Shown here: positions 6,072-51,601 of the stretch, in pieces
How the letters are laid out: each line of letters starts with the position of its first letter
Numbering within the stretch: position 1 is the stretch's first letter
DNA from: Aestuariivirga sp.
GTDB taxonomy: Bacteria > Pseudomonadota > Alphaproteobacteria > Rhizobiales > Aestuariivirgaceae
DNA length: 64,000 nt
Direction: 5' to 3'
Assembly: GCA_030680855.1 (NCBI GenBank)
Contig: JAUXUN010000068.1
Location: forward strand, 1 to 64,000
Program-made: the position numbers and the translations under genes
The notes under the pieces: generated by a model
Told to the model about the DNA's origin: nothing
Seen by the model: the letters and a program-made list of their open reading frames with translations, nothing else
Databases searched by the model: none

Positions 6072-6689
6072 CTACCAAGTCTCCGCTTCCCGCAATTCCG
6101 CAAAGAGTGCCCCAAAATCACCCTTGGAGCGGTTGAGCACGTCACTGAAACGCTTCTTCGTAGCGATCGTCAGCCACACCCCTTTAACATTGATGTCACT
6201 GATCTTGTAACCGCCACCCGCCGGAACGAGGCGCCACCTGACCTGTTCGCGGCCGCCACCCTTCTGCCTGATCGCACTCACAATTGTAATGAATCTGCCT
6301 TGCTTGGACGTGGAAATGATTTGCAGTTCGGAACCCTTGAAATCGTCTACATAATAGACAAACAGCGCCGCCGCATAATTGTTGAACAGGGCGTAGAATT
6401 CATTCCTGTCGCCAGGCGGCAGTTTCTTCTGATAGGGACCAAGCGCAAAATTGGCAATGGTACGAAGGTTGACGTAGCGGCTCAATAGGGAACTAAACCT
6501 GTTACGCAATGCCGTTCCTTTGACGCCGCTGTTTGCCAATAACATGACTTCATTAGAAATTTTCCTAACATACGACTCAGCCGGGCTGATGGCTGCGGCG
6601 ACGCAACTTGTATTTCCGACAATTGCCGTTCCAAAGATTAAGGCCGCAAATTCCCTGCGGGTGATATGGGGACTTGACGCGCGGGTCAT
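6072..6689 (-). CDS. MlaC/Ttg2D-type phospholipid-binding periplasmic protein
   Basis: 205 residues. The N-terminus has a signal sequence with a twin-arginine-like pair (T-R-R-E-F) followed by a hydrophobic stretch, so Tat or Sec export is likely. The body has the features of the MlaC/toluene-tolerance family: an FxxLLSRYVNLRTIANFALG-like segment and a YKISDINVKGVWLT segment near the C-terminus. Family members shuttle phospholipids between outer and inner membrane with MlaFEDB, but no mlaDEF genes are present here. It may be a solitary paralogue. About 600 bases of mostly non-coding DNA lie between it and ftsH. Confidence 0.75.
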   Translation of the reverse strand: MTRASSPHITRREFAALIFGTAIVGNTSCVAAAISPAESYVRKISNEVMLLANSGVKGTALRNRFSSLLSRYVNLRTIANFALGPYQKKLPPGDRNEFYALFNNYAAALFVYYVDDFKGSELQIISTSKQGRFITIVSAIRQKGGGREQVRWRLVPAGGGYKISDINVKGVWLTIATKKRFSDVLNRSKGDFGALFAELREAETW

Positions 6690-6837
6690 TTAACCTCTCC
6701 AAGCAATGCTCCTAAGTTAGCACCGGGGTCATTATAGGTATTCCAAATTGCTGCGTAACGATTATTTAGCGTGGGCGCTGAGGATACGCTTCAGCCAACC
6801 GAAAGTTATTCAGTCATTGGCTATTGTGGTTATGTAT

Positions 6838-7040
6838 TGAGGGCTCCCGTGAAGTATCATGACGGCGTACCTTCCGCTGGGGCTGCGAGTGATTTCTAAT
6901 AGACAAGAGTAGCCTTTTGCATTCTTACGCAAGGATGCGGCCACCACTTCATTGTTATTTAAATGCTGAGTTGCCAGCCGCTGTAGCAGCGTTGTACTGC
7001 GAGTTCGATTTGGACCCTCTGGGCAGTTTTTATTTCACAA
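6838..7040 (-). other. Open frame without a start codon in the 6690-7310 gap
   Basis: This 620-base gap has no ORF with a proper start. On the minus strand one frame stays open for about 66 codons and looks protein-like (contains YSCLLEITRSPSGRYAV) but has no usable start codon and no family I recognise. It may be a decayed small gene. The gap also holds the two dyads listed separately. Confidence 0.25.
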
Positions 7041-7041
7041 T

Positions 7042-7055
7042 GTCAATTTTTTGAC
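7042..7055. promoter_or_regulatory. Perfect inverted repeat GTCAA-N4-TTGAC
   Basis: GTCAA-TTTT-TTGAC is a perfect palindromic dyad about 255 bases before the ftsH start. Its half-sites are the outward-facing version of an FNR half-site, so it is not itself an FNR box. Its role is unknown. Confidence 0.3.
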
Positions 7056-7173
7056 CCAAACCGGACATCGCGGGTTTGGCGAGTGGCGTCAACCGACGCA
7101 CCAGACCCATTCCTTCTCGACGAGAGGTCATGCATGCAATAATCTCTCACAGTGTTTGGTACAAAATATCGGG

Positions 7174-7201
7174 CAGGCTAGGGTCAGGCTGACCCTGCCT
7201 G
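7174..7201. promoter_or_regulatory. Strong hairpin or operator dyad upstream of ftsH
   Basis: CAGGC-T-AGGGTCA, a GGC loop, then TGACCCT-GCCTG: a twelve-base-pair stem with one bulged base and a three-base loop, about 110 bases before the ftsH start codon. No T-tract follows, so an operator or a leader hairpin is likelier than a terminator. Confidence 0.45.
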
Positions 7202-7310
7202 TGATGGCATTGTTGTAGGTCATGGTAGTGTTGTCCAATCTATTTCGATAGTAATAGCCTTGGTCGTTCAGTTGACGGCGCGCCGGGGATATTTTTGGGA
7301 GGAACGGAAT

Positions 7311-20608: not shown

Positions 20609-21727
20609 ATGTCACTGATCAACTTGGCGTCGCGCGTGACGCCTCTCAATTCGCGCGCATTCATCGGGCTTGCCGTTGCTGCTTTTGCCGCCGTCGGCCT
20701 ATCCCTAACCCCCGCTGCCGAGCCAGCCCTGGCCCCCGGCTCAGTCTTCACTGCCAATGAAGAAGGCGGCAGCCTGTCGCGCATCGACATTCAGTCGGGA
20801 GCGGTGCAATCGATCACATTGCCGGTCATGCCGCACAATGTCGACATCAGCGCCGAAGCCCGCCTTGTGTTTGTGGTAGGCTTGGCGGCGAATGCCGGCC
20901 ATGGCATGTCAACCACGATGACGACGTCCACGGCTGGAGAAAGTGCAGAGGCACATGAAGACGAAGAGCCAGCCGGCCGCTTGGCCGTCTTCAAACTCGA
21001 CGCCATCGATCATGAGCCGGTCGCTATCATCGACGTTGGCCATCATCCGGCTCACGTCGTTCCTGATCTGAGTGGAAAGCGGGTCTTCGTGACCGATTCG
21101 GAATCGAACACTGTTTCGGTCATCGACCTGAATTCCAGCAAGATCGTGAAGGCGATTCCGACGGGCAGCTATCCGCACGGGCTGCGCCTCAGCCCCGATG
21201 GCCAGGAACTCTTCATCGCCAATGTCGAGGATGGATCGGTTTCGGTGATCGATGTCGCGAGTCTGGAAGAACAGGCGCGCATTCCTATCGGCAAGGCGCC
21301 GGTCCAGGTCGGGTTCACGCCTGACGGAACGCGCGTCTACGTATCGCTGCGCGACGAAAACAAAGTTGCGGTGATTGACCGTGCGGCTCGCCAGGTGATC
21401 ACAAAGATCGATGTGGGCTGCAATCCGATCCAGGTGTTTGCAACCCCGGACGGACGCCACGTCTATGTCGCCAATCAGGGAAGCGATACCGATCCGGACA
21501 ATCGGGTATCGATCATTGATGTTGCTTCAAATGAAGTCGTTAAGACACTGACCGTGGGCGCCGGCGCCCATGGCGTGACAATTTCGAAGGACGGGCAGTT
21601 CGCCTTTATCACCAATATCAAGGACAACAGTGTCTCGGTGATTGACACGGCAAGCCAGACTGTGGTGCGAACCATCCCCGCCGGCGAAGGCCCGAACGGA
21701 ATTGCCTTCTTCCCGGGCAATTCCTGA
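20609..21727 (+). CDS. YncE-like beta-propeller (YVTN-repeat) protein
   Basis: 372 residues with a signal peptide ending near SLTPAAEPALA and about seven repeats of the YVTN/lactonase-type blade (for example RVFVTDSESNTVSVIDL, ELFIANVEDGSVSVIDV, HVYVANQGSD). It has an extra His/Met-containing insert near residues 92-115 (GHGMSTTMTTS). Propellers of this kind act as periplasmic binding or electron-transfer-associated proteins; no enzyme activity is implied. A strong bidirectional hairpin terminator follows, separating it from the leftward cupredoxin gene. Confidence 0.85.
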   Translation: MSLINLASRVTPLNSRAFIGLAVAAFAAVGLSLTPAAEPALAPGSVFTANEEGGSLSRIDIQSGAVQSITLPVMPHNVDISAEARLVFVVGLAANAGHGMSTTMTTSTAGESAEAHEDEEPAGRLAVFKLDAIDHEPVAIIDVGHHPAHVVPDLSGKRVFVTDSESNTVSVIDLNSSKIVKAIPTGSYPHGLRLSPDGQELFIANVEDGSVSVIDVASLEEQARIPIGKAPVQVGFTPDGTRVYVSLRDENKVAVIDRAARQVITKIDVGCNPIQVFATPDGRHVYVANQGSDTDPDNRVSIIDVASNEVVKTLTVGAGAHGVTISKDGQFAFITNIKDNSVSVIDTASQTVVRTIPAGEGPNGIAFFPGNS

Positions 21728-27402: not shown

Positions 27403-28335
27403 TCAGCTTAATTCGGGTTGCGCGCCCACATGAAGGTAGCCAGGTTTGCGGTGGAAGAAGCCATTCATCACGGGTTGCGGCATTCCCAATTCGGCCAGCC
27501 TTGCAAATGTCTCATCTGCGGAAATCCGGCCATCGAGCAACTGCCGGTAGGCGCGTGCGACCGCTGTCATGTCGAGGCTGTGAGGCGAAAGGCGGAGGGC
27601 GGCGACGCCCATGGCTACCAGCGCAGGGATTTCAGCCGAGAGTTCGAGGTAGCGGTGCGATAAAGTCTGGATGCCGTTGATTGCCAGGAATTTGTGGTGC
27701 GAGCGGGTTTGCAGTTCCATGCCATCCGCATCGTTTTCGCAAACGAAAAGACAATTATCCTTGGTGCGGCCATGGGCGCGGGCGTGATAGCAACGCGCCG
27801 ACAGGGCCAATGTGACACGGCCAAAAACCTGCACTTCGGTCGTGGCACCTGCCGCTTCCGCTGCTTCGGTCAAGCGGGAGATCGTTTCCGCCGGAAGCTC
27901 CGGCTGCAGGCTGAAATGATAGGCGCCATTGGAGGCGAGATGGGTGATCGTGGCCTCGTTGTATACATTCAGATACTGGCCGATGCGGTGCGGCTTGCGA
28001 TGAAGCAATGGGAGGAGGGATGCATCATTGGCTTCGATGTCCGCGGTCTCAAATTCGGCGATACCGGTGGAGGCTCTGCGGTCAATGGCCGTGACAACCT
28101 GGGCCAATGACGACCAGACGACACGCTTGCCGGCCCGCGTGAGGCGCTCAGACACTTCTTCAATATGAGGATTAAAGAACGGCTCGCGCTTCGAGCAGAC
28201 GGCTTCGCCGAGATAGACGGTTTCAACCGGCGCTTCGTCAGCGACGCGGAACCAGAAATCGCGCTTAGTTTCCGCTGGCCAATGAAACAGCAGCGGGCCC
28301 ATGGTCAGTTCGGTGGTCACTGCGGCTATCTCCAC
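27403..28335 (-). CDS. ubiV: UbiV, oxygen-independent ubiquinone hydroxylation (U32 family)
   Basis: 310 residues from a GTG; a second GTG five codons later is better placed after GGAG and may be the true start. The U32-peptidase fold is seen in LTMGPLLFHWPAETKRDFW, AVCSKREPFFNPHIEEV, LHRKPHRIGQYLNVYNEAT and LSARCYHARAHGRTKDNCLFVCENDADGMEL, which bear the iron-sulfur cysteines. With UbiU it forms the iron-sulfur heterodimer that hydroxylates the ubiquinone ring without O2. Overlaps the end of ubiU by ten bases and is followed by nnrS. Confidence 0.9.
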   Translation of the reverse strand: MEIAAVTTELTMGPLLFHWPAETKRDFWFRVADEAPVETVYLGEAVCSKREPFFNPHIEEVSERLTRAGKRVVWSSLAQVVTAIDRRASTGIAEFETADIEANDASLLPLLHRKPHRIGQYLNVYNEATITHLASNGAYHFSLQPELPAETISRLTEAAEAAGATTEVQVFGRVTLALSARCYHARAHGRTKDNCLFVCENDADGMELQTRSHHKFLAINGIQTLSHRYLELSAEIPALVAMGVAALRLSPHSLDMTAVARAYRQLLDGRISADETFARLAELGMPQPVMNGFFHRKPGYLHVGAQPELS

Positions 28336-29348
28336 TTCTTGGTCTGGAAGGCGCCCTGGGTTTCCTTGCCGCCCTCAGTGAGCGCCACGAGCCCTGAGAG
28401 GTCGTGCCAGCGGCCAGCCGCAATATCGTCAACTGCACGGCGGTAGGCTGAAACGACGGCCTGCACATAGGAACGTGAGCGCTGGCGGCCTTCAATCTTC
28501 AATGCCGTTACCCCAGCCGCGATGAGATCCGGCAGCAGCGACGAGAGGTTCAGGCTGACCGGCTCTTCAAAAGCATAATAGGGCTCCTTCCGCACCGGCG
28601 AGAGATAACGGCCTTTGCAGATCGTCGGGTAGCCGGCGTGTTCGCCGGCGGCGAAGCAGTCGATCTCAAAATCACCAAGCCCGGCAGTTTTGCTGCCATC
28701 GGGCAGATCCATGTAATGGACCGCGTTTGCCGGTGAGCACACGCCATCCATGTTGGTCGAGGTGCCAGTCACATAGTTGGTCAGGCTGCACCGCCCTTCC
28801 GACATCATGCCGATGTTGCCGAAAACGAAGGCTTCGATCTCGCAAGGAATCTCGCGGTGAATGGCAGCGATCTCAGTGACGGTGAGAATGCGCGGAAGAA
28901 CAACGCGCTTCACATTGAATTCCGAGCAATAGTAGCGGATTGCCTCCGGCGATGAGGCCCCCGCCTGCACTGAAAGATGCAGCCGCAATTGCGGATGGTG
29001 CTCCGCGGCGTAGGAGGCCACGCCAATGTCAGCAACGATGACGGCATCCACGCCCAGCCGTGCAGCTGTATCGACGGCATCAAACCAAAGCTGGGTCCGG
29101 GGGGCCGTGGCAAAGGAATTCACCGCCAGCAGCACCTTGGTGCCGCGACCGCGGGCATAGGCGATGCCCTGTTCAAGCAGGTCAGGCGTGAAGTTCAAAC
29201 CGGCGAAGTTGCGGGCATTGGTTTCGTTGGCCAGTCCGCAATAGACCGCGTCCGCGCCCGAATCGACGGCAGCGCGCAAGGCGGCAGGCGTTCCTGCCGG
29301 GCAAACAAGTTCCGGCTTTGCATTCGGCGTGATGGCCTGGGTGTTCAT
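28326..29348 (-). CDS. ubiU: UbiU, oxygen-independent ubiquinone hydroxylation (U32 family)
   Basis: 340 residues. The motif ELVCPAGTPAALRAAVDSGADAVYCGL and the cysteine-bearing GRCSLTNYVTGTSTNMDGVCSPA and YPTICKGRYL segments are typical of UbiU. It pairs with UbiV to insert hydroxyl groups into the ubiquinone ring in the absence of oxygen, using prephenate as oxygen donor. Overlaps ubiT by four bases and ubiV by ten, a tight, translationally coupled operon. This explains how ubiquinone-dependent nitrate and NO reduction can be sustained anaerobically. Confidence 0.93.
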   Translation of the reverse strand: MNTQAITPNAKPELVCPAGTPAALRAAVDSGADAVYCGLANETNARNFAGLNFTPDLLEQGIAYARGRGTKVLLAVNSFATAPRTQLWFDAVDTAARLGVDAVIVADIGVASYAAEHHPQLRLHLSVQAGASSPEAIRYYCSEFNVKRVVLPRILTVTEIAAIHREIPCEIEAFVFGNIGMMSEGRCSLTNYVTGTSTNMDGVCSPANAVHYMDLPDGSKTAGLGDFEIDCFAAGEHAGYPTICKGRYLSPVRKEPYYAFEEPVSLNLSSLLPDLIAAGVTALKIEGRQRSRSYVQAVVSAYRRAVDDIAAGRWHDLSGLVALTEGGKETQGAFQTKKWR

Positions 29349-29863
29349 GCCTGCATCTCCAGCCGGCGCAATCTCTGGAGCAGGAGATGGGCCGGCATCA
29401 GCGCGGGACCGCCCATGTGAAGCAGGTCCTCAATCACGCTGCCTTCGAGATCGTCGAGCGCGTATCTGAGGCACACGGCGGCTTCGGTGTTGCCACTCAC
29501 CTTGAGGTTTCCAGAAAAGAACATGGCATCCGAGTCGCCACGTCCGTCGAGGACTTTGAAAAGTTCCATGAAGGGTCCGGCGATTGACGCGTCGCTTGCG
29601 ACTTTATCCGGCCGGCGGTGCGCCGTAAGTTCCGGATTCCTTGGATTTGGTTTCAGCAGCAGCACGAAGGGCAATTCAGTCACGTCGATTGCGTAGGATG
29701 AGTCAATGTGGGAGCCAAGACGTGCGAAAAATTCCGGGCGGCGCTGGGCAATGCCCCTCACCATCCGCGACAGAATGAATTGCAGTGGGAATAAGGGCAA
29801 TGGCGCCAAGAGCTTGCCAATCACCACTGGAAGCATCAGGCCCTTGAGATTCTCCTCAGCCAT
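29345..29863 (-). CDS. ubiT: UbiT, SCP2-domain ubiquinone-synthesis accessory protein
   Basis: 172 residues. The SCP2-type domain holds a hydrophobic start (PLPLFPLQFILSRMVRG) and a FVLLLKPNPRNPELTAHRR segment, with an FFSGNLKVSGNTEAAVCLRYALDDLEG end that is family-specific. UbiT binds lipid intermediates and organises the anaerobic ubiquinone pathway. Its ATG overlaps the end of the RIC gene by eight bases, so the two are coupled. Confidence 0.88.
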   Translation of the reverse strand: MAEENLKGLMLPVVIGKLLAPLPLFPLQFILSRMVRGIAQRRPEFFARLGSHIDSSYAIDVTELPFVLLLKPNPRNPELTAHRRPDKVASDASIAGPFMELFKVLDGRGDSDAMFFSGNLKVSGNTEAAVCLRYALDDLEGSVIEDLLHMGGPALMPAHLLLQRLRRLEMQA

Positions 29864-32505: not shown

Positions 32506-32904
32506 CTAGACGCCCAGTTTCTTGTGCAGCCGCGCGTCCTTCGATTTGAAGTGATTGACAAACCAGTCCCGCACCGTGGACGACAGGCTATCGCCATAGG
32601 TGGAAGATGGGTTGTCCTGCTGCGCATCCATGATATCCCTAATCTCGTCGAGCAGCCGTTCATGTTCGGCTTTGTGCGCCTCATATTCGTCGTAGGCGTA
32701 CTTGCGCATGATCGATTCCTCAAGCGCGAAATGCGCCGCGATCTTGGCGAATACTTCACCGAGAAATTTCGTTACGTGGGATCGGTCTGCACCGCCCACT
32801 ATGTGCTCATGCAACCGGTTGATGATATCGACAAGTTCATGATGCTCGTGATCGACATCGGGTATGCCAGTTTCAAATTCCTTGCGCCATTCGATGAGTG
32901 ACAT
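32506..32904 (-). CDS. Bacteriohemerythrin
   Basis: 132 residues with the full hemerythrin ligand set: DVDHEHHEL, HFALEESIMRKYAYDEYEAHKAEHERLL and WFVNHFKSKD, including the I-P-x-V-D-x-E-H start of the family. Binds O2 reversibly at a di-iron site and can bind NO. It is the last gene of the NOR operon, nine bases after the unknown protein, and could supply or buffer O2 or NO near the reductase, or protect it. Confidence 0.92.
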   Translation of the reverse strand: MSLIEWRKEFETGIPDVDHEHHELVDIINRLHEHIVGGADRSHVTKFLGEVFAKIAAHFALEESIMRKYAYDEYEAHKAEHERLLDEIRDIMDAQQDNPSSTYGDSLSSTVRDWFVNHFKSKDARLHKKLGV

Positions 32905-32913
32905 TTTGCAATG

Positions 32914-33417
32914 CTACCTGAAGAGGAAGCCTCCCTGTTCGGCCTTGAAATCGATGGCGAGATTTTGCCGGGAAGACAACTCGCCTTCAAATTTGCTCTC
33001 ATAGTCGAAGCCTTCGGCCCTTTTGCTGTCTCGAAGCCGCGCCAGGATAACATGCCTGCCGGCAGGTACAGTAAATTTCTGGTAGGTCTTGGCCTGCCCA
33101 TCGCTGGAAAGACCGCTTGGCTGCAGCACGGCTTCATAGAGCAAATTGCCGTCGATCATCAGCTGGATTGCAATGGGCACGCGCTCGCGTGAACAATCGT
33201 TGGGTTTTCGCTTGTTGCTCGGCAGTTTCGAGAGCTCCTGTGCCGTAAGCCTCCGGCAATCTTCAACGCGCGCGCCGCTGTGATTGAATGCCAGTTTGAT
33301 CTGGGCCGAGCCGGCGGGCAATTGAGCGTGCTCCGGCCAGGACGCAAGGGTCCCGATAGCGGCGGCAAACGCGGCATAGAGCAGGGCCTGACCAGTGTAT
33401 TGCGTCAAACTAGGCAT
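32914..33417 (-). CDS. Unknown protein with an N-terminal membrane helix, in the NOR operon
   Basis: 167 residues: one hydrophobic helix near the N-terminus (QALLYAAFAAAIGTLASW), then a soluble domain with two cysteines (RVEDCRRLT, PNDCSRERV) and a strand-rich end that may be a carbohydrate- or metal-binding fold. No family I can name. It overlaps the upstream fusion gene by eight bases, so it is coupled and probably works with the fusion or its quinol site. Confidence 0.6.
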   Translation of the reverse strand: MPSLTQYTGQALLYAAFAAAIGTLASWPEHAQLPAGSAQIKLAFNHSGARVEDCRRLTAQELSKLPSNKRKPNDCSRERVPIAIQLMIDGNLLYEAVLQPSGLSSDGQAKTYQKFTVPAGRHVILARLRDSKRAEGFDYESKFEGELSSRQNLAIDFKAEQGGFLFR

Positions 33418-34987
33418 CGGACTTCTCTTCCGCAGCCATGACGCCGCTAACGGGTGATTTGGGTTTGAAAGGACCAAGGGCCGCAAGTCGTGCCGAAAGC
33501 TTGTAAATCTCCCGGCGAAGCATTGAAGCACCAAGCCTGCCTGCCCAGACTGCCATATGCCGCTCGCGCGGCACTCGCGTCCTAAGGTGCGGGTCGCGCT
33601 CGGAAGCCAGCCTATCTGCAGTCCATCTGGCACCGAACCTGTTGTGGCAGCTGTTTTCACTGCAGCCAGCAATGATTACGCCATCTGCAAGTTTCTGGCT
33701 GATGACATAATCTATGAAAGATGGTGGCAATTGCCCCGCACAGTTCAATGAAACGACGCCGACATTGTCCGAACGGCATGCCATTGCCACGCCGGCGTTG
33801 ATGCAGCCGAAAATCATGATGCGGGCTGGACCAGTGATTCGTGCACCCTCGTCTTCGACATCGGCACGAATAGCCGCTATGGACCGATCCGGCAGGTCGA
33901 TACCGGGTACCAGGTCTGACAAGCGGCGAAATGGGGTCGATGTCGGGCAAGCGCCGGCGCATATTCCACAAGCGACGCAGAGATCGGGATCAACGACGGC
34001 TTCGCCCTCAAAAGGCCTGCCGTCACTTCGGATTTGCATAGTGATCGCGCTGTATGGGCAATCATTCATGCAGCGGGCGCAGCCGTTGCAGTTAGCGAGA
34101 TCAACGACAGCAGCTCTCTGCCGCTTCATCGGTGGAAGCCAGGGAATTGCCGCCATGATTATGAGCAGGGTGACGGCCGTGCTCCACGTCACCGGTCCAG
34201 GAAGAGTTTCAAGCAGGGGATAGGCGCCGAGATAGAACCAGTCGAGGCCAATGCTGCCGGGAACTTTGGCCAGGTCTGCAGCGCCCTGGCTTGTTGCTGG
34301 ATAAATCGCAGAAAGAGCCAGAAGTGCCAGTGCGGTTCCGATGGCCAGTTCCCGGGGCGGATTGATCCGCGGCTTGCTCACACGCTGCAGGTGGAGCCAT
34401 AAACCAACAAGTGCGATCAGTGGAACCGCGATATGCATGAAAATCATCAGTGTGAAGAAGCGGCTTTCGAGCGTTTCGGGCGACAGGAAATTGCGCGCCA
34501 GCGGCTGCCCGAAGAAGGGCAAGTGGTCCAGCCATTCGGTCGAGACGATCGCAACATACTGGGCGAGGCTGTCCCATACCAGCCAGTAGCCGCTGATTCC
34601 GGCTATGTAGATGAACAGCAACACGGGAACTCCAGTTACCCAACTGAACCACCGGACGCCTCGATACCGGTCGCGGGAAAACTCGCGCAGGATATGGAGC
34701 AGCATTACGAAAACCAGGGCGTCGGAACCATAGCGATGCAGGCTGCGCATGAGACCTGCCGCGTACCATTGCTCATTTGTCATGTATTCGATGGAGGCGA
34801 AAGCCTGAGTTACGCCAGTGTCGAAAAAAACGTAGACGTAAATACCGCTGACGGTCACAATCCAGTAGAAGAAAAAGCCGAGCGCTCCAAGATTAAGCAG
34901 GGGGTTGGCGTTCGCAGGGAATGCCAGAGCGAGAAAGCGTTCACCCGCATCAAATCCGGTGCGGAGCGGTATTCTCAGAAAATGCAT
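33410..34987 (-). CDS. Fusion protein: cytochrome b, two-cluster ferredoxin, and MvhD-like iron-sulfur domain
   Basis: 525 residues. Residues 35-280 are a membrane cytochrome b with paired heme-ligand His (H84/H98 and H185/H199, in LHRYGSDALVFVMLLH and FMHIAVPLIALVGLWLH). Residues 300-347 have two 4Fe-4S motifs (C300, C303, C306, C310; C337, C340, C343, C347). Residues ~388-455 resemble the [2Fe-2S] MvhD domain of methanogen hydrogenase (C395, C404, C416, C442, C447). This combination in the NOR operon suggests a path for electrons from quinol, or from NAD(P)H or a flavoprotein, to the NOR. The name of the family is not known to me. Confidence 0.8.
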   Translation of the reverse strand: MHFLRIPLRTGFDAGERFLALAFPANANPLLNLGALGFFFYWIVTVSGIYVYVFFDTGVTQAFASIEYMTNEQWYAAGLMRSLHRYGSDALVFVMLLHILREFSRDRYRGVRWFSWVTGVPVLLFIYIAGISGYWLVWDSLAQYVAIVSTEWLDHLPFFGQPLARNFLSPETLESRFFTLMIFMHIAVPLIALVGLWLHLQRVSKPRINPPRELAIGTALALLALSAIYPATSQGAADLAKVPGSIGLDWFYLGAYPLLETLPGPVTWSTAVTLLIIMAAIPWLPPMKRQRAAVVDLANCNGCARCMNDCPYSAITMQIRSDGRPFEGEAVVDPDLCVACGICAGACPTSTPFRRLSDLVPGIDLPDRSIAAIRADVEDEGARITGPARIMIFGCINAGVAMACRSDNVGVVSLNCAGQLPPSFIDYVISQKLADGVIIAGCSENSCHNRFGARWTADRLASERDPHLRTRVPRERHMAVWAGRLGASMLRREIYKLSARLAALGPFKPKSPVSGVMAAEEKSDA

Positions 34988-34990
34988 GCC

Positions 34991-35782
34991 CTATCGCCCC
35001 TTGGCTTTGGCGGATTTTCGAGCCTCGCGAATGAGGAACGCAAGTATCCCAAGCAAGCTTCCAAGACCAATAAATATTGAGAGGGGCAACGCATAGCTGA
35101 AATAATAGCGGCCAGTCTTGCGGTCATAGATTGTGCAGAAAAGCCTGACCCGGTCGCTCAAGCCTGCCAGAGAGAAAGCCGGGCGCTGATGGCCGAACAC
35201 CAATTGTTTCAATGGCTCGACAATGGTGGGCGGCTCAAAGCTGCTCCCGTAGACCTGCTCATAGATCGTGCCATTCTTGTCGAGGATGGTTACCTGGGCC
35301 ATGTGGTCAAAGCCGCCGGCGGATGAAAAGTAATTGAAGCCGAGCGCCTCGCTTAGGAGACTGATGGTTTTAGTGTCGGAGCTCGCAAAATACCAATTGC
35401 TGCCTCCCGCATCGTGGGCGCGGGCAAATGAGCGCATGCGGTCCGGAGTGTCGTTGCGAGTGTCAAATCCGATGGTGATGATGTTAAAACTACCCTTGCC
35501 CAACGCGTCTTCAGCCGTCTCGGCGGCGACCGCCAGGCTCTCAATGATGGTGGGGCAAACATCAGCGCAGCCCGTATAGATCATCGTGACCAGCAAAGGC
35601 TTGCCGCGCAGGTCGCGGAGCGCGATCTTGCCTTTGTCCGCGCTTTGAAACGTGAAATCGGGAACACCGCTGCCAATCGCGCCTTGCGAAACGTTGAGAG
35701 CGGTGTCGACGCGCGTGTCTGCTCGTGCGGGAGACGACAGGGCCATGGCCAACAGCCATGCTGCGGCAAGGAGACGTCGCAT
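34991..35782 (-). CDS. SCO1/SenC copper-insertion protein
   Basis: 263 residues, secreted signal then thioredoxin-like domain with the copper motif YTGCADVCPTI (Cys-x3-Cys-Pro) and the distal His in SSAGGFDHMAQVTI. A C-terminal hydrophobic helix (ALPLSIFIGLGSLLGILAFLI) anchors it. SCO inserts copper into CuA of cytochrome oxidase subunit II. In sNOR clusters the equivalent gene is senC, after which the family is named. Its ATG overlaps the heme O synthase stop by one base. Confidence 0.88.
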   Translation of the reverse strand: MRRLLAAAWLLAMALSSPARADTRVDTALNVSQGAIGSGVPDFTFQSADKGKIALRDLRGKPLLVTMIYTGCADVCPTIIESLAVAAETAEDALGKGSFNIITIGFDTRNDTPDRMRSFARAHDAGGSNWYFASSDTKTISLLSEALGFNYFSSAGGFDHMAQVTILDKNGTIYEQVYGSSFEPPTIVEPLKQLVFGHQRPAFSLAGLSDRVRLFCTIYDRKTGRYYFSYALPLSIFIGLGSLLGILAFLIREARKSAKAKGR

Positions 35783-36666
35783 CAGAAGAATCCGATGGCG
35801 CGGTCGGCAATCGTACCTGACAAGAGCAAGACAAGTTGAAGCAGCGAAGCCAGAAAATTCTGGATGGCCCGCTTGCGCGTCGGTTCAAATACCAGCCGGG
35901 CGCTGGTCCAGAGGAAAAGGGCCCCGCCTGCTGCGGCGCCTGCGAGATAGACGTGGCCCATCGACCAGAATGCCGGAAGCAATGAGAGCGCGACGAGAAG
36001 GGCGGTGTGGGCGAATATCACCCTGGCAGTCAGCGCATTGCTGGTGATAACCGGAAGCATCGGAACCCTTGCTGCTACGTAGTCATCGTGTGCGGCAATG
36101 GCCAGGCTCCAGAAATGCGGCGGCGTCCACAGGAACAGCACAAGTGAAAGAATGACCGGTTCCGCCTGCCAGCCGGGATGAACAGCGGCGGCGCCAGCAA
36201 GGACCGCAAAGCTGCCTGCCAGCCCGCCGACAATGATGTTGGTCCAGCTTCGGCGCTTTAGCCACACAGTATAAATTATGCCGTAAACGAAAGCACCCAT
36301 GAAAGTGTGGAATGCGGCCCACCAGTTGGCTGCCCAGGCGGCCATCATAACTGCTATGGCGAGAAGCCCGAGGATCGCGGCCAGCCATGTACCATCAGCC
36401 CGGAAACGCCCGGCGGCAAAGGGCCGCGATGCCGTGCGCTTCATCTGGCGGTCGAGATCGGCTTCGGCCCATTGATTAAAGGCACCTGCGCTCGCCGAGG
36501 CGAGGAACACGGCCAACGCAAGAATGCCTACGCGCCATAGGTCAGGCATGATTCCTGGTGTGACCGCCACGCCTCCGACTGCACTCATCATGATGGCCAC
36601 TCCGATCCGCAATTTGAAGATCGACAACACGTCCCTGACGAGTGGAACGGCGGCGGCTGTGGTCAT
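35782..36666 (-). CDS. ctaB: Heme O synthase (protoheme IX farnesyltransferase)
   Basis: 294 residues, nine hydrophobic segments and the polyprenyl-transferase motif N-Q-W-x-E-A-D-x-D (AFNQWAEADLDRQMKRTASRP). A second Asp-rich loop (AIAAHDDYVAARVPM) completes the site. It farnesylates heme b to heme O, a precursor for heme a-containing oxidases. Its presence inside a NOR-type operon suggests that a modified heme is used in the active site here. Confidence 0.9.
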   Translation of the reverse strand: MTTAAAVPLVRDVLSIFKLRIGVAIMMSAVGGVAVTPGIMPDLWRVGILALAVFLASASAGAFNQWAEADLDRQMKRTASRPFAAGRFRADGTWLAAILGLLAIAVMMAAWAANWWAAFHTFMGAFVYGIIYTVWLKRRSWTNIIVGGLAGSFAVLAGAAAVHPGWQAEPVILSLVLFLWTPPHFWSLAIAAHDDYVAARVPMLPVITSNALTARVIFAHTALLVALSLLPAFWSMGHVYLAGAAAGGALFLWTSARLVFEPTRKRAIQNFLASLLQLVLLLSGTIADRAIGFF

Positions 36667-36678
36667 CGCCTCAACTCC

Positions 36679-38421
36679 TCACTGCATCGGCCAGAGTTCG
36701 GACAGATATTTCCAATTCACGAAGTAGTAGAGAATGAAGGTCGTGAAAAATAGGCCAACCAGCACATAGGTTCCCGGGAGATGCCATGTGCCCGCGTCGC
36801 CATACTTGGTGACAGCTTCATGTACGATCTTTTTCGGCATCGGCCCAAGCGAGGCAACGGCATTGGTCGCGTCCACTTTCTTGCCAAACAGGATACTCCC
36901 GACGGTGATGGCGATATAAAGGGCACCGCCGATCGCAGCGAGGATGGCGGATAGGCCATTCAAGCCCATCATCAGGGAGGCAATCGGCGGGTAGCCATAG
37001 GGCAATATCACGTCAGAGGCAGGAAAGGTGATATCCCAGTGGCGGCGCGCAACGCCCAATGTACCGGCACCCATCATGAAGACCGAAATTCCTGCGGCTC
37101 CAAGACCGAAGAGGTAGGGCTGCAATCTTGCCAATTTCGGCCAAATGATCTGGCGCTGGAAGATGAGCGGCACGATAAGATAGGTGGCCGCCATGAAGGC
37201 AAGTGTGGTTCCGGTCACGACCGTGGCGTGGAAATGCCCGGGCACGTAAAGGGTGTTGTGCATCATGATGTTGAGCTGTTCGGTGCCAAGGATGACGCCC
37301 GATATGCCGCCCAGGAAGCCGAACATGACAAGAGAGAGGAACATGCCGGCAAAGGCCGGATTGCCCCAAGGCGCCTTGCGCAGCCATTCAAATACGCCGC
37401 GGGTGTAGCCACTCTTGCGCTGGGCGGCCTCGATTGAGCCCGGTACCGTCATGCCGTGGATCATGCTGCCCAAGACTGCGAGATACATCATGTAAGAGGT
37501 GTTGACGATCTTCCATTCGGAGCTCAGGCCTGGTTCGACCAGCAAATGATGCGCCGAAGCCAGTTGAAGGAAGAAAATATACAGGAGGAACGCGGTGCGG
37601 CTGACTTTTTCGGACAGCGGCTTTGCGCCAACTGTCACAGCCGCAATCAGGTACCAGATGGCCACATGGGCGGATACATTGATCTGCTGCGATGAATGGC
37701 CCATCGCCCACCACACAAGCTTGTAGGTCAGGGTATCGATGTTGGCGATATATCCGACCGACCACAGGAAGGTTGGAATGAGGATAATCGCGCCGGACGC
37801 AATGGTGAAGACAGCGATGATGCAGGCCGTGAGCGCACCGAAAGTGACAAGTGGGATAGAGCCTTCATATGTCTTCTCCTCTTTCGCGATCACCAGAGTG
37901 CCGAGGAAGATGAAGCAACCGATGAGCGCGCCAACTGCGAACAGAATCAGTCCCAGATAGAAATGCGGCTGGGCCTTCAGTGGCACATAGGAGGTGAACA
38001 TCACGCTTGAATCGCCCTGGAGTACGGCGACATTGGTCATCAGGCCGCCAACGACCATCAGTGCAAAACCTACCCAACCCCATCGGGGCGCGGCAATGCG
38101 GCTGCTGAGTATGACGGCAGACGCGAAATAGAGAATTGCCATTTCAAAGAAAATAATCCACAGCAACAGCACGTCAAGGCCATGAGCAGTCAACACGAGG
38201 TAGAACATATCGGAAGACAACAGATGAACCGCTGGCCAGCGCGTTAACGCGACCAGGAGCCCGAAAGTACCTCCGATCATCAGGAATACGACGGCCGCGA
38301 CGGCGTTGGCCTTGATCAGGCGTTCCGCAGCGAGATCAACCTTGAGGCCGGTTGCGGGGCAGGTGCGGAATTTCGTCGCCAGTCTTCCAATATAGTCTGA
38401 TTCGGTTGCAGCTGTGGACAT
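36679..38421 (-). CDS. norS: Heme-copper catalytic subunit of sNOR type (probable NO reductase)
   Basis: 580 residues, twelve hydrophobic helices. Low-spin heme His H80 (LTAHGLD) and H398, CuB His H242 and H291/H292 (SAHHL), and high-spin heme H396 (VPGHFH) are all in place. In oxidases Tyr follows four residues after the first CuB His; here the site reads H242-S-S-Q-Q246, so the His-Tyr cofactor needed for O2 reduction cannot form. That is the hallmark of NO reductases that arose among oxidases (sNOR, eNOR, gNOR). Its partners CuA subunit and SenC match sNOR of Nitrosomonas (NorSY-SenC). Start at the ATG after GGGAGG; an upstream one would overlap the CuA gene. Confidence 0.8.
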   Translation of the reverse strand: MSTAATESDYIGRLATKFRTCPATGLKVDLAAERLIKANAVAAVVFLMIGGTFGLLVALTRWPAVHLLSSDMFYLVLTAHGLDVLLLWIIFFEMAILYFASAVILSSRIAAPRWGWVGFALMVVGGLMTNVAVLQGDSSVMFTSYVPLKAQPHFYLGLILFAVGALIGCFIFLGTLVIAKEEKTYEGSIPLVTFGALTACIIAVFTIASGAIILIPTFLWSVGYIANIDTLTYKLVWWAMGHSSQQINVSAHVAIWYLIAAVTVGAKPLSEKVSRTAFLLYIFFLQLASAHHLLVEPGLSSEWKIVNTSYMMYLAVLGSMIHGMTVPGSIEAAQRKSGYTRGVFEWLRKAPWGNPAFAGMFLSLVMFGFLGGISGVILGTEQLNIMMHNTLYVPGHFHATVVTGTTLAFMAATYLIVPLIFQRQIIWPKLARLQPYLFGLGAAGISVFMMGAGTLGVARRHWDITFPASDVILPYGYPPIASLMMGLNGLSAILAAIGGALYIAITVGSILFGKKVDATNAVASLGPMPKKIVHEAVTKYGDAGTWHLPGTYVLVGLFFTTFILYYFVNWKYLSELWPMQ

Positions 38422-38422
38422 C

Positions 38423-38977
38423 TCAGCCTCCCTGGCCCGGTTCGACGACATAAATGCGGCCGGTCATCTGATGGTGTCCCAGCCCGCAATATTCGTTGCA
38501 GACGACACCATAGGTGCCTGCCTCGGTCGGTGTAATGGTGATGATGTGCTCAAGGCCAGGATGAACCTGGATATTCATGTTGATGGGCAGCAGCGAGAAC
38601 CCATGTTGCAGGTCAACCGATGAAATATGCAGTTTGTAAGGCTTGCCTTTTTCAAGCTCGAGCACTGGCCACCAATCGAAAGTGCGCGCAAGCATGTAAG
38701 CATCACCACCGGGCGGCGGCCTCACAACGGGCACGCCGGTGTCACCTTCGTCCCGAACTTTGAATTTTTCGGCAAACTCGTTTGTTCGCTGCTCAAACAC
38801 GGCGGGATCGATGCGGCCAACTTGCGTGGACAGGTTCTGCTGGCCATAGATGTGCCAGTAGATCATCATGAAAAACATGATGAGTCCCCACAAAAATGCG
38901 ACAGAAATCCAGACCAATTCAGCTTTGGCGACTGGCTCATTCCACCAGATACGGGTCTGCGGAGGAAAAATTGCCAT
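38423..38977 (-). CDS. norY: CuA-containing electron-entry subunit of the NOR
   Basis: 184 residues. One N-terminal membrane helix (LVWISVAFLWGLIMFFMMIYW) precedes a cupredoxin domain with a full binuclear CuA site: His in VDLQHGFSLL, then GVVCNEYCGLGHHQMTGRI (two Cys, Glu, His, Met). The protein therefore accepts electrons from a soluble donor, probably the adjacent cytochrome c. Only one transmembrane helix and a proline-rich linker distinguish it from two-helix COX II proteins. It precedes the catalytic subunit by one base, so the two are coupled. Confidence 0.87.
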   Translation of the reverse strand: MAIFPPQTRIWWNEPVAKAELVWISVAFLWGLIMFFMMIYWHIYGQQNLSTQVGRIDPAVFEQRTNEFAEKFKVRDEGDTGVPVVRPPPGGDAYMLARTFDWWPVLELEKGKPYKLHISSVDLQHGFSLLPINMNIQVHPGLEHIITITPTEAGTYGVVCNEYCGLGHHQMTGRIYVVEPGQGG

Positions 38978-39269: not shown

Positions 39270-39641
39270 CTACTTTGTGGCCTCTTCAAGATATTCGAGG
39301 ATATTTTCGATCTCTTCTTGCTTCTTCAGTCCAGTAAATGACATTTTGGTGCCTGGCACTACGGCCTTTGGGTCTGCCAAATAGGCCTTCAGGGTGTCCT
39401 CGGACCATATGATGCCTGAGTTCCTCATGGCTTCGGAATAGCTAAAGCCTTCAACGTTTCCAGCGCTACGGCCAAACAGACCCTTGAGCGAGGGCCCCAC
39501 CCTATTCTTGGGCTCGGCTACCTCATGGCAAGCCTTGCATTTATTGAAAACCTTCTGGCCGAGCGCCGCGTCGCCAGCAGCGGCGGGCGAAACAAAAACG
39601 GCAATCGCTGCGAAGGCAAAGAGCCAAACTTTGATGTTCAT
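39270..39641 (-). CDS. Periplasmic class I cytochrome c
   Basis: 123 residues: signal peptide cleaved after AAA, heme motif CKACH near residue 35, and the axial methionine in the GTKMSFTG segment. Size and the LKAYLADPKAVVPGTKM region are typical of mitochondrial-type c2/c550. It is probably the soluble donor to the CuA subunit of the NOR. Its own near-perfect FNR box lies upstream, so it is a separate transcription unit. Start at Met-Asn-Ile-Lys, the fifth residue of a longer frame, gives the best signal peptide. Confidence 0.9.
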   Translation of the reverse strand: MNIKVWLFAFAAIAVFVSPAAAGDAALGQKVFNKCKACHEVAEPKNRVGPSLKGLFGRSAGNVEGFSYSEAMRNSGIIWSEDTLKAYLADPKAVVPGTKMSFTGLKKQEEIENILEYLEEATK

Positions 39642-39693
39642 TCCGGTCTCCATATTCTAAGTCGAAATAGAGCAGATCAGGCCGTGAGCTGCC

Positions 39694-41523: not shown

Positions 41524-42255
41524 TCACTCCGCTGGTTGATGTGTTGATTTTGGACCGCTTCGGCCCGTCAGAACCCTGCGGGTACGCACCACCTGATAGC
41601 CGCGGCGGCCAAGATACCAAACTGGCGCCGACCAGATATGCACGAGACGTGAGAATGGGAACACCAGGAACAGCGTCATGCCAAGCACTAGGTGCGTCAG
41701 ATAGGGCCAGTCCAGCCCCTGCAACGTGCTCGCGTCCACGGGATGCAGCGTCAGGATGCCCTGAGCCCAATGCGCTAATACCAGCATGGCCGAGCCGTCC
41801 GAATGGGTGAGGGAATAGGGCAGGGTAATCAGGCCGAGCGTGAGCTGCACCCAGAGAATGATCAGCACTGCAATATCCATTCGCGTGCTCGTGGCCCGGA
41901 TGCGAACATCAAACAATCGTCGATGAAGAAGAAGCGAAAGACCAATGAAGCAGGCCACGCCAGCCACGCCACCTGCAATGACAGCAACCAATTGTTTCAG
42001 TTCGACGGTCATGAACAGGGTGTAAATCGACGTGGGCGTGAGAAGTCCCACTGTATGCCCAAAGAGCAGGAAGAGTATGCCAAAATGAAAAAGGTTCGAT
42101 CCCCAAGTCAGTTGCTTCCTGCGCAGGATCTGGCTCGAACTCGCCTTCCATGAATATTGCTCGCGGTCATAGCGGATGAGGCTGCCCACGAGAAAAGCGG
42201 TGAGGCAGACATAGGGATACCAGACGAAGAGAATGGTGAAGATGCTGTCGCGCAT
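41524..42255 (-). CDS. narI: NarI, gamma subunit of respiratory nitrate reductase
   Basis: 243 residues, five transmembrane helices, with His in FHFGILFLLFGHTVGLL and in the later MLVLAHWAQGI and YLTHLVLGMTLFLVFPFSRLVHIWS that bind the two heme b groups. The N-terminal DSIFTILFVWYPYVCL is typical. It takes electrons from quinol and passes them to NarH. Its ATG overlaps or abuts narJ by three bases. Confidence 0.95.
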   Translation of the reverse strand: MRDSIFTILFVWYPYVCLTAFLVGSLIRYDREQYSWKASSSQILRRKQLTWGSNLFHFGILFLLFGHTVGLLTPTSIYTLFMTVELKQLVAVIAGGVAGVACFIGLSLLLHRRLFDVRIRATSTRMDIAVLIILWVQLTLGLITLPYSLTHSDGSAMLVLAHWAQGILTLHPVDASTLQGLDWPYLTHLVLGMTLFLVFPFSRLVHIWSAPVWYLGRRGYQVVRTRRVLTGRSGPKSTHQPAE

Positions 42256-48316: not shown

Positions 48317-48774
48317 AATGAGTCTCCGGAGTGGGTTGATCGGCGCCGCAGGCAATTCAGTTTCAGACAGGCCAAAATGGCGATTATGACCCAGAGAACA
48401 GAGCGCAGCAGCATGGCCATTACTGTGCGCATCTCATAGGCGCCCCCGGACATCACGTGATTGGCAAAAAGGGCGGAAGTGACGAGAATTGATATGGCAA
48501 GCAGCAATGAGAGCTGTCCACCCCAGCGCCGCCGTTGCATCAAGCCGATGCCCGCCGCGATGTAGACGAAACCAGTCAGAAAATTGAACCAGAGCACAAA
48601 CAGCACGACATCGCCGGCGGCGGCTCTCGATTCGGGATCTCCAAACAGTACGCGCCCTCCAGACACGATGCTGGCGAGCCCGAACACAATGGCGATGGTT
48701 GCAAGAATCAACAGCCATCGAGGACGCCTGGCCGAACTTGCGTAAACTGGATTCTGGTCGTCGCCACTCATCAT
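48313..48774 (-). CDS. Four-helix membrane protein between narK and narG
   Basis: 153 residues with four hydrophobic helices (LLILATIAIVFGLASIVSGG, AGDVVLFVLWFNFLTGFVYIAAGIGL, LSLLLAISILVTSALFANHVM, VMAMLLRSVLWVIIAILACLKL). Contains a His in ALFANHV and one Cys. No known domain. It overlaps narK by four bases and narG by four, which suggests a coupled function in nitrate import or quinone access. Similar genes occur in some alphaproteobacterial nar operons. Confidence 0.7.
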   Translation of the reverse strand: MMSGDDQNPVYASSARRPRWLLILATIAIVFGLASIVSGGRVLFGDPESRAAAGDVVLFVLWFNFLTGFVYIAAGIGLMQRRRWGGQLSLLLAISILVTSALFANHVMSGGAYEMRTVMAMLLRSVLWVIIAILACLKLNCLRRRSTHSGDSL

Positions 48775-51527
48775 GCCGACTTCCTCTTTGAAACTGCCAT
48801 CGAAACCGAGCTTCTTTCCACATCAAACAGCAGCCCGCCACGCCGCGCGTAGAACCACCAGGTGATGGCGATACAGCTCACATAAAAGGCAAGGAAGGCA
48901 TACAGTGCTGTTTCCGCTCCTCCCGTCAGGGCAAGCGAGGTGCCAAAGCTCTTCGGGATGAAGAAGGCGCCATATGCCGCGATGGCAGAGGTGAAACCGA
49001 TAATCGCGGCGGCTTCCTTGTCCGATTGCTTGACGCGGCCACCCGCGTCAAGCCCGGGTTCGAGCCGCGCCAATTCCTTGCGCATGATGGCGGGAATCAT
49101 CTGGAAGGTCGAGGCGTTGCCGATACCCGATACGGCGAACAGGAAGAGAAAGCTCGCAAAGAACACCGGGAATGCTGTCGGGCTGCCCTTCATGCCTATA
49201 GCGTAAAGAACGCCAACAACACCGGCACTCATTGCGACGAAGACCCAGAGCGTAATCCGCCCGCCGCCAATCCGGTCACAGGCCTTGCCCGAGAAGGCGC
49301 GAGATAACGCGCCGACCAGCGGCCCAAGGAAAGCATACTGAAGCACATTAATTTCCGGGAACAGAACCTTCGAAAGCAGCGGGAAGGCCGCCGAGAAACC
49401 GATGAATGAACCGAATGTGCCGGTATAAAGCCAGCACATGATCCAGTTGTGGGTACGCCGGAAGATCACCGCCTGGTCGGCGAATGAGGCTTTCATCGTT
49501 GCGATGTCATTCATCCCGAACCATGCCGCGAAGGCCGAGGCAACAATGAAGGGCACGAACACATAGCCGGCGTTTTGCAGCCACAGGGTTGTCGTCACAC
49601 CATTGGCCGTTGCTGTTTGTGGATCGCCGCCAAGCCAGCCGAAAACACCGGCGGTTATCACTATAGGCACCACGAACTGCACGACACTGACACCAAGATT
49701 GCCGAGCCCGGCATTGATGGCGAGCGCATTACCTTTTTCCGCCTTGGGAAAGAAGAAGGAGATGTTGGCCATCGAAGAAGCGAAGTTGCCGCCACCGAAC
49801 CCACAGAGCAGCGCCAGGGCGAGAAATATCCAGTACGGGGTATCCGGATTCTGCACCGCATAGCCCATGCCGACAGCCGGAATGAGCAGTGACCAGGTAG
49901 CCAGGGTCGTCCAGAGCCGGCCGCCAAAAATGGCCGGCATGAAACTGTAGAAGATGCGCAGTGTGGCACCCGAGAGACCTGGCAATGAAGCCAGCCAGAA
50001 GAGCTGCTCCGTTGTGAAGGCAAAGCCAACGCTTGGCAGCTTTGCCACAACGACCGACCAGACCATCCAGACCGAAAATGAAAGGAGGAGGCAGGGCACG
50101 GATATCCACAGGTTGCGGCGGGCGATGGCCCGTCCGCCATGCTCCCAGAAGGTCTTGTCTTCAGGGCGCCAGTCTTCGATCGCGCCATGAGCCGCCAAAG
50201 CACCCCTTTGCGCTGCGCCATGAATTGTTTGCATTTCCGGCAACTCCGGCAGGCTCTTTGCGGGCACTCCAGACTCAACAGCCGAACGCTCCATTTGGCG
50301 AATTGTGACATGCATCCATGCCAATGCCACGGAAACGACAACGAACAGCAGCCAGAAGCAGCTCTGCCATATGCCAGTCAGGTCATTAAGTGCGCCAAAG
50401 GCGATGGGCAAAACGAAGCCACCCAGTCCACCGACAAGACCAACAACGCCGCCAACAGCACCAACACGATTTGGATAATAAACCGGGATGTGCTTGTAGA
50501 CTGCCGCCTTGCCAAGGCTCATGAAGAAACCCAGGATAAAGGTCACGACGATGAAACCGGTGATGCTCATTTCGGTATTGAAGGTCACTGGCCCGCGGAT
50601 GCCCTGCATCACATACTGGGTTGGCGGATAGGAGAGCGCGAATGTGCACACGACCGAGACCGCGAATGTCCAGTACATGATGCGTCGGGCGCCAAACTTG
50701 TCTGAGAGATGCCCGCCATAGGCCCGGAAAATCGAAGCGGGAATCGAGTATGCCGCGCCGATCATGCCTGCGGTGGTGATATCAAGCCCATAAACGCCAA
50801 TGAGATAGCGGGGCAGCCACAGGGCCAGTGCCACGAAGGCACCGAACACGAAGAAATAATAGAGCGAGAAACGCCATACCTGGATGTTCTTGAGCGGCTC
50901 CAGCATTGCGGCAAGTGATTCAGGTTTTTCTCCGGTAGCACGCCGCCGTGCGAGGTCAGGGTCGTCCTTGGCAAAGAGAAAAAAGATAATACCCATGGCC
51001 GCGAGAACCGCCGCCCAGATGAGGGCAACGGTTTCCCAGCCGTAGGCCACCATGATCACGGGCGCTGCGAATTTGGTGACCGCGGCGCCTACGTTGCCTG
51101 CGCCAAAGATACCAAGGGCCGTGCCCTGCTTCTCGGTAGGATACCATTTTGCGACATAGGCGATGCCGACAGAGAAAGAGCCACCGGCAATGCCAACGCC
51201 AAGTGCGGCCAGAAGGAAAGTGGGATAGTCGTAGGCATAGGTGAGCAGCGCCGTCATTACGGCCGCGCTCAGCATGGTGAGCGAATAGACTATGCGCCCG
51301 CCATATTGGTCCGTCCAGATGCCGAGCATGAGGCGTATGAGAGATCCGGTCAGGATGGGCGTACCGACTAGAAGACCAAACTCTGTGTCCGTCAGGCCGA
51401 GGTCTTTCTTTATCTGAATGCCGATAATCGCAAAAATCGTCCACACTGCGAAACAGACGGTGAAAGCGACTGTCGATAGCCAGAGCGCGCGACCCTGGTC
51501 CGACGGATTAAATACTGTCTTGGACAT
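48771..51527 (-). CDS. narK: Fused NarK1-NarK2 nitrate/nitrite transporter
   Basis: 918 residues in two MFS halves: residues ~1-430 (RALWLSTVAFTVCFAVWTIFAIIG...RWLPRYLIG) and ~470-918 (NLWISVPCLLLSFSVWMVWSVV...). Each has the family GGxGGFVLPIAFGAL or GNFASSMANISFFFPKAEKGNALAINAGLGNLGVSV motif. Fused NarK1K2 occurs in Paracoccus, where the first half is a proton-nitrate symporter and the second a nitrate/nitrite antiporter. Start ATG lies six bases after GGGGAG. A perfect FNR box sits 75 bases upstream. Confidence 0.95.
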   Translation of the reverse strand: MSKTVFNPSDQGRALWLSTVAFTVCFAVWTIFAIIGIQIKKDLGLTDTEFGLLVGTPILTGSLIRLMLGIWTDQYGGRIVYSLTMLSAAVMTALLTYAYDYPTFLLAALGVGIAGGSFSVGIAYVAKWYPTEKQGTALGIFGAGNVGAAVTKFAAPVIMVAYGWETVALIWAAVLAAMGIIFFLFAKDDPDLARRRATGEKPESLAAMLEPLKNIQVWRFSLYYFFVFGAFVALALWLPRYLIGVYGLDITTAGMIGAAYSIPASIFRAYGGHLSDKFGARRIMYWTFAVSVVCTFALSYPPTQYVMQGIRGPVTFNTEMSITGFIVVTFILGFFMSLGKAAVYKHIPVYYPNRVGAVGGVVGLVGGLGGFVLPIAFGALNDLTGIWQSCFWLLFVVVSVALAWMHVTIRQMERSAVESGVPAKSLPELPEMQTIHGAAQRGALAAHGAIEDWRPEDKTFWEHGGRAIARRNLWISVPCLLLSFSVWMVWSVVVAKLPSVGFAFTTEQLFWLASLPGLSGATLRIFYSFMPAIFGGRLWTTLATWSLLIPAVGMGYAVQNPDTPYWIFLALALLCGFGGGNFASSMANISFFFPKAEKGNALAINAGLGNLGVSVVQFVVPIVITAGVFGWLGGDPQTATANGVTTTLWLQNAGYVFVPFIVASAFAAWFGMNDIATMKASFADQAVIFRRTHNWIMCWLYTGTFGSFIGFSAAFPLLSKVLFPEINVLQYAFLGPLVGALSRAFSGKACDRIGGGRITLWVFVAMSAGVVGVLYAIGMKGSPTAFPVFFASFLFLFAVSGIGNASTFQMIPAIMRKELARLEPGLDAGGRVKQSDKEAAAIIGFTSAIAAYGAFFIPKSFGTSLALTGGAETALYAFLAFYVSCIAITWWFYARRGGLLFDVERSSVSMAVSKRKSA

Positions 51528-51601
51528 GCCCACTCCCCTGATATCAAAGCGCCGTTGCCGGATGCCGGGATGAGTTTTTAGCCAGAGACCCCGATTTTCC
51601 T

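Follow-up and report, generated by a model that had tools for sequence, protein, structure and literature searches.

In the window analysed here, a 64,000-nt stretch of Aestuariivirga sp. (contig JAUXUN010000068.1, assembly GCA_030680855.1), the operon of a nitric oxide reductase of the eNOR family, whose product, nitrous oxide, is a greenhouse gas, encodes a protein that joins a membrane cytochrome b to a pair of [4Fe-4S] ferredoxin motifs and a FlpD domain. The individual parts are known and their combination is new; the gene is followed by that of a 167-residue partner (ORF167). The fusion accompanies eNOR almost everywhere that eNOR was found in the sampled proteobacterial genomes, and the pairing is systematic, more so than an earlier, preliminary description of this DNA could know. 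The interpretation that we favour, albeit tentatively, is that the fusion works together with ORF167 as an electron-input module that spans the membrane and is dedicated to the eNOR of Pseudomonadota. In the literature searched, which included the available portions of PMC8756737, PMC6967387, PMC8114936, PMC12569097, PMC10734462 and PMC4653789, no description of the fusion in an eNOR operon was found; an earlier mention in Murali 2024, the main eNOR paper, is possible. In the portions of PMC8756737 covered, a cytochrome b6/FlpD domain combination is listed without an eNOR link, and eNOR is described as a two-subunit enzyme, with no cytochrome b/FlpD partner, that has seldom been reported, is more diverse than was assumed and is frequently annotated in error as a cytochrome c oxidase.

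The operon runs in the order cytochrome c, subunit II, subunit I, heme O synthase, SCO, fusion, ORF167 and bacteriohemerythrin (Table 1), and from subunit II to bacteriohemerythrin adjacent genes either overlap or are separated by no more than 12 bases. The reading frame initially proposed for the fusion was recovered with the same limits, and so was the coupled 167-residue protein, whose gene overlaps that of the fusion by 8 bases. The SCO residues Cys72, Cys76 and His160 are present in all 74 aligned rows (4 of 77 were omitted as short). Of the 80 related loci, only 4 have a match to the upstream cytochrome c550-like protein.

Table 1. Coordinates of the operon features and of the candidate regulatory site within the window.
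Feature	Position	Strand	Basis or remark
Bacteriohemerythrin	32506..32904	minus	NF033749, 107.3 bits (cut-off 84); next operon gene after ORF167
ORF167, 167 aa, N-terminal membrane helix and beta-sandwich	32914..33417	minus	ORF and structure model
Cytochrome b / 2x[4Fe-4S] / FlpD fusion, 525 aa, ATG start	33410..34987	minus	ORF and domain profiles
SCO/SenC protein	34991..35782	minus	Profile match
Heme O synthase (CyoE/CtaB)	35782..36666	minus	TIGR01473, 251.5 bits (cut-off 210.3)
eNOR subunit I	36679..38451	minus	His ligands, Gln256 in place of Tyr
eNOR subunit II, CuA motif CNEYCGLGHHQM	38423..38977	minus	Profile and alignment
Perfect candidate FNR/CRP-type palindrome TTGATGTAGATCAA	39221..39234		Gap before subunit II
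Cytochrome c550-like protein	39270..39653	minus	Profile match; upstream

The domain composition of the fusion was established by two kinds of search. Against Pfam, residues 22-202 match Cytochrome_B (73.7 bits, cut-off 27.2), the ferredoxin pair at 293-350 matches Fer4 (40.7 bits, cut-off 21.1) and residues 397-505 match FlpD (PF02662; 36.3 bits, curated cut-off 22.3), the family of the delta subunit of the methyl-viologen-reducing hydrogenase (MvhD). Against the PDB, a profile of 40 fusion sequences retrieved cytochrome b6 (6rqf, E 2.4e-26) and the MvhD chains 9sw2_D (2.7e-12) and 5odc_D (1.6e-11), and the C-terminal part alone retrieved four MvhD-type chains (E from 7e-7 to 3e-4); the MvhD likeness first noted for this region is thus assigned by profile. 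In an alignment of the window with 77 of the 80 related loci (the short ORFs of L089, L093 and L099 were left out), the heme ligands His84, His98, His185 and His199 and the ferredoxin cysteines 300, 303, 306, 310, 337, 340, 343 and 347 are found in all 78 rows, as expected of the membrane cytochrome b with four heme histidines and the two 4Fe-4S motifs of the preliminary description. That description also gave the MvhD-like domain five cysteines. Its identity stood; however, while Cys395 and Cys416 occur in 78 rows and Cys442 and Cys447 in 77, position 404 is a Cys in only 6 of the 78, so that the conserved set comprises four. Mean identity of the aligned rows to the window is highest in the ferredoxin pair (0.68), followed by the cytochrome part (0.65) and FlpD (0.45).

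The order of a ferredoxin pair and then FlpD is that of the HdrA2 C-terminus and MvhD of methanogens, and residues 292-507 of the fusion align with 571-774 of HdrA2 (NCBIfam), far below the cut-off of that model. In contrast to those systems, this unit is joined here to a membrane cytochrome b, and it contains the sole FlpD domain found in the genome (E up to 0.001). A hydrogenase link, as the MvhD likeness might suggest, is unsupported on this account, and a Pfam scan of 20 proteins from the operon and its neighbourhood recognized no hydrogenase or Hdr genes. The conservation of the cofactor ligands bears also on a sensing role, in which NO-labile clusters would signal to the operon instead of carrying catalytic electrons. 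The window does contain NsrR-like and Crp-type regulators, and the hemerythrin gene adjoins; the fusion, however, has no known output domain, and the joint conservation of heme sites and cluster ligands suggests electron throughput, making this the least probable of the roles considered.

An AlphaFold2 model of the fusion (mean pLDDT 83.6) presents six long membrane-fitting helices, located between residues 29 and 283, followed by the ferredoxin and FlpD domains. Basic residues outnumber acidic ones in segments 1-29 (3 versus 2), 105-112, 203-211 and 284-300, whereas acidic residues predominate in the other loops. From this charge distribution, both termini are probably cytosolic, which would place the ferredoxin-FlpD tail in the cytosol, and the quinone-site motif and the ORF167 sandwich on the periplasmic side. 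This motif emerged when the fusion profile was aligned (hhalign) with 16 ordinary cytochromes b of related genomes: the alignment covers residues 18-288, shares the heme ligands with the bc1/b6f cytochrome b, and sets the LDWF stretch of the fusion, with invariant Asp249 and Trp250, on the PEWY of the periplasmic quinone site, of which it is a variant and not the PEWY itself. Unlike the bc1/b6f cytochrome b, the fusion has fewer helices and carries the Fe-S/FlpD tail.

ORF167 is modelled (pLDDT 94.5) as a single N-terminal helix (residues 2-26) followed by a beta-sandwich. Cys54, Cys75, Arg77, Arg79 and Gly102 are present in all 76 rows of its alignment (1 of 76 was omitted as short), His46 in 70 and His122 in 72. 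The protein has no Pfam match, no family matches more than one of the 38 members of its profile set, and no PDB fold reaches E 0.001 with the model. An Ig-type domain, presumably of the kind found in CcoG/FixG, was considered as a candidate identity and rejected, given that neither a fold at E up to 0.001 nor a profile match was obtained.

With respect to the reductase itself, the heme and second-metal ligands of subunit I are fully conserved (His90 in 61/61 rows; His252, His301, His302, His406 and His408 in 63/63; 9 of 71 rows were omitted as short), as are the CuA residues His125, Cys160, Glu162, Cys164, His168 and Met171 of subunit II (60/60). At the position of the active-site Tyr, all 63 rows contain Gln256, within a helix VI that reads GHSSQQ. 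According to the portions of PMC8756737 covered, Gln at this site defines eNOR, whereas sNOR has Asn (Table A4). Judged by this residue, the enzyme of the window is an eNOR, and assignment as sNOR is ruled out; the operon had therefore been placed correctly in the NO reductase family, and only the sNOR class suggested for it does not hold. The Gln was checked in the aligned subunit I rows and in G411, G472 and G688, and the genome matches counted below were called eNOR by similarity, at 52-79% identity besides the window itself.

Relatives were found with the fusion as query (80 of 123 kept), and neighbours were counted where enough flanking sequence was available. ORF167 lies beside the fusion in 73 of 73 such loci, SCO upstream of it in 70 of 73, eNOR subunit I beside it in 58 of 61, heme O synthase upstream in 36 of 61, and hemerythrin nearby in 53 of 65 (46 on the same strand). 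Three loci (L087, L088 and L096) have neither SCO nor eNOR at the fusion, and eNOR is encoded elsewhere in their genomes, so that the pairing persists there without linkage. The genomes of L081, which is from the isolate Magnetovibrio blakemorei MV-1 and has this operon, and of L086 also hold eNOR (in two pieces in L086), and that of L095 (G065), whose contig begins inside SCO, has no eNOR-level match (best 1.2e-11). The whole gene set is carried by a Defluviimonas plasmid. Other arrangements were observed as well: the fusion occurs in two tandem copies in L116, L118, L122 and L123 (family f197); a heme-copper-like protein, of 460-480 aa where complete, is encoded downstream of ORF167 in L116, L118, L119, L122, L078 and L090, with helix VI GGHVLQF in L119 and L118 and no NCBIfam match for the L119 copy; and in Candidatus Magnetaquicoccus (L096:10446-15910) the fusion-ORF167 pair adjoins genes that, by eye, resemble those for heme d1 synthesis.

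The pairing was equally apparent genome by genome. In a class sample of 289 genomes, eNOR was found in 18, the fusion in 19 and both in 18; in a phylum sample of 398 genomes, the figures were 30, 34 and 29 (the genome of the window belongs to both samples). Given the frequency of the fusion (19/289 and 34/398), chance would have it shared with eNOR in approximately 1.2 and 2.6 genomes. The proposed link to NO reductase genes is thus very strong both at the loci and across the genomes. The sole genome with eNOR and no fusion is G411 (L120), in which the contig ends just after SCO. Conversely, the fusion was found without an eNOR match in G342, G458, G473, G480, G559 and G608, which, like the genome of L095, counts against an electron-input module, although many of these genomes are incomplete; in G342, G458, G559 and G608 a contig breaks off within SCO or the fusion or a short way upstream of one of them, and G473 and G480 are not so explained. 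Among 61 relatives, a full-length fusion was present only in G000, G009, G034 and G038, the remaining matches covering only the cytochrome part or the ferredoxin part or, in G050, residues 298-463.

Outside the phylum, the picture is different. The eNORs on plasmids of Thermus thermophilus and Thermomicrobium roseum are about 45% identical, with the Gln and the CuA subunit present, and no match to the fusion, ORF167 or SCO was found within 12 kb of them; this check covered 2 of 11 Thermus records and one Thermomicrobium record, all of them plasmids. Since none of the three genes was found near these enzymes, eNOR chemistry as such does not need the module and, as far as seen, the electron module belongs to the Pseudomonadota branch and not to eNOR chemistry generally. 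A Haloarcula protein (one record) was ruled out as an eNOR because it has Tyr at the site. As a separate observation, helix X of the Thermus eNOR (L128, L129) reads GHFK, versus GHFH in the other aligned sequences, and the low-spin heme His appears to be replaced there by Lys.

How, then, might the fusion serve eNOR? Electron transport across the membrane on behalf of the reductase is the probable function. Briefly, a cytosolic reductant, either an NAD(P)H flavoprotein or a ferredoxin, would reduce FlpD; electrons would then cross the two 4Fe-4S clusters and the two hemes and exit on the periplasmic side, where the acceptor would be quinone or else the CuA of eNOR, reached via a cytochrome c. 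The roles initially suggested, namely transfer between the quinone pool and CuA or a connection to a cytosolic flavoprotein, are compatible with this anatomy. The outward direction is preferred because outward electron flow is favoured by the membrane potential and because related fusions include one with an NAD(P)H-reductase domain and one with a cytochrome c. The former is encoded within an eNOR operon of L119 (G688; positions 6637-8619), where its gene lies between SCO and ORF167; a second version of the same cytochrome b is joined here to a 2Fe-2S and FAD/NAD reductase part whose best matches are MmoC and BenC, below their cut-offs, and the FlpD version is also present. The latter is RME88945.1, which Table A3 of PMC8756737 gives as an ORF containing a cytochrome c homolog, under cytochrome b6, DMSOR-beta and FlpD. 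Taken together, these two proteins suggest that the input is cytosolic and the output periplasmic.

Several facts count against an electron-input module. The NAD(P)H-reductase fusion is rare (1 of 130 loci), none of the operon genes was recognized as a conserved flavoprotein or dehydrogenase, and profile scans revealed no recognized cofactor motif in ORF167. Furthermore, such bacteria already supply their CuA enzymes with electrons through a bc1 complex and cytochrome c. In a different role, the module would pass cytosolic electrons to quinone, bc1 and cytochrome c would feed eNOR, and the link to eNOR would be regulatory or metabolic only. The PEWY-like motif of the cytochrome b and the lack of a cofactor motif in ORF167 fit such a quinone reductase. 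We nevertheless regard it as unlikely, for it leaves unexplained both the near-obligate pairing with one NO reductase family and the conserved partner ORF167.

The same quinone-site motif can be read in the opposite direction, with quinol oxidized on the periplasmic side and electrons driven to the FlpD end, possibly by bifurcation, with eNOR as the high-potential branch. This inward flow would be uphill against the membrane potential, and no Rieske or cytochrome c1/f model matched any of the operon and neighbour proteins scanned, and it is accordingly judged very unlikely. A similar scheme has been proposed, in the part of PMC12954380 seen, for anammox Rieske/cytochrome b complexes with NAD(P) modules; these resemble the fusion in joining cytochrome b to a cytosolic Fe-S and nucleotide module, but they retain the Rieske and multiheme cytochrome c parts that the fusion does not have. 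In its most specific form, for which the prospects are slimmer still, a Rieske-less bifurcating complex at LDWF would split quinol, sending one electron via the CuA of eNOR to NO and the other via the hemes, the ferredoxin pair and FlpD to a low-potential cytosolic reductant. If that were true, the formation of NAD(P)H or ferredoxin would be driven by NO reduction.

A further explanation is that the fusion is a maturation reductase, its cytosolic electrons keeping copper or the SCO thiols reduced during assembly of the CuA or the binuclear centre of eNOR. The frequent presence of SCO and of heme O synthase upstream, together with the invariant Cys54 and Cys75 of ORF167, agrees with this idea, as does the likeness to membrane redox proteins that support heme-copper enzymes. 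Among the latter, in the portions of the sources covered, CcoG is a membrane-bound ferredoxin-like cupric reductase important in cbb3 oxidase assembly (PMC8475189), and CrpH, of the PepSY_TM family, supports heme-copper enzymes (PMC13038864). Copper reduction by CcoG is, however, cytosolic. FixG/CcoG and PepSY are absent from the Pfam hits (17 families), and the CcoG/FixG family is not among the matches listed, the best 25 of 82 NCBIfam families. Moreover, L124 and L125 keep SCO together with eNOR, with the fusion-ORF167 pair apart or divergent, indicating that the pair is not tied to SCO. Across 58 sequence sets, distances of the fusion correlate more closely with those of eNOR subunit I (r=0.885; none of the six gene pairs scored higher, and this one comprises the two longest and hence also least noisy proteins) than with those of SCO (0.799). 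Finally, a maturation role needs no quinone-site motif. On balance, this explanation is a serious alternative, though less probable than electron input.

For the electron-input module, the clearest functional parallel, with no sign of homology seen, is NosR. Based on the sections of PMC7660919 covered, the likeness is one of layout only: a membrane part, two cytosolic 4Fe-4S clusters, a periplasmic part and service to one denitrification enzyme, NosR being thought uninvolved in the copper assembly of N2O reductase and perhaps its electron donor. NosR differs in having a periplasmic FMN domain, instead of which the fusion has hemes, and no match to an FMN-binding model was found in the fusion or ORF167. 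The best NCBIfam match of the cytochrome b part is ExtP (NF040969), from selenite/tellurite operons; identification as ExtP was rejected because the score (103.1 bits) is far below the cut-off of 290 and the profile, of 205 positions, lacks the tail.

If the eNOR of Pseudomonadota does need its own module, the two-subunit enzyme fed by cytochrome c would be an incomplete picture, heterologous expression of eNOR may fail without the fusion and ORF167 genes, and the fusion would be a handy marker separating these eNORs from oxidases. An electron port of the HdrA/MvhD type would then work far from the methanogen enzymes.

In the surroundings of the operon, narI is found at 41524-42255, and NnrS, NsrR-like and YtfE-like genes lie nearby. 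The palindrome in front of subunit II, whose pattern we take to be of the FNR/CRP type, is one of five perfect sites in the window, and 44 sites with up to 2 mismatches were counted versus 24.3 expected. When the genome was scanned, a NirK model stayed far below its cut-off; a cytochrome d1 model gave only two partial matches (at 21056-21685), both above the cut-off, in one 380-aa frame. At 27403-29863 of the window, two U32 peptidase-type genes and an SCP2 gene follow one another, presumably the UbiUVT layout of oxygen-independent ubiquinone synthesis. Lastly, a 920-aa ORF beside the nar genes (48771-51533) looks, by eye, like two fused major-facilitator transporters.
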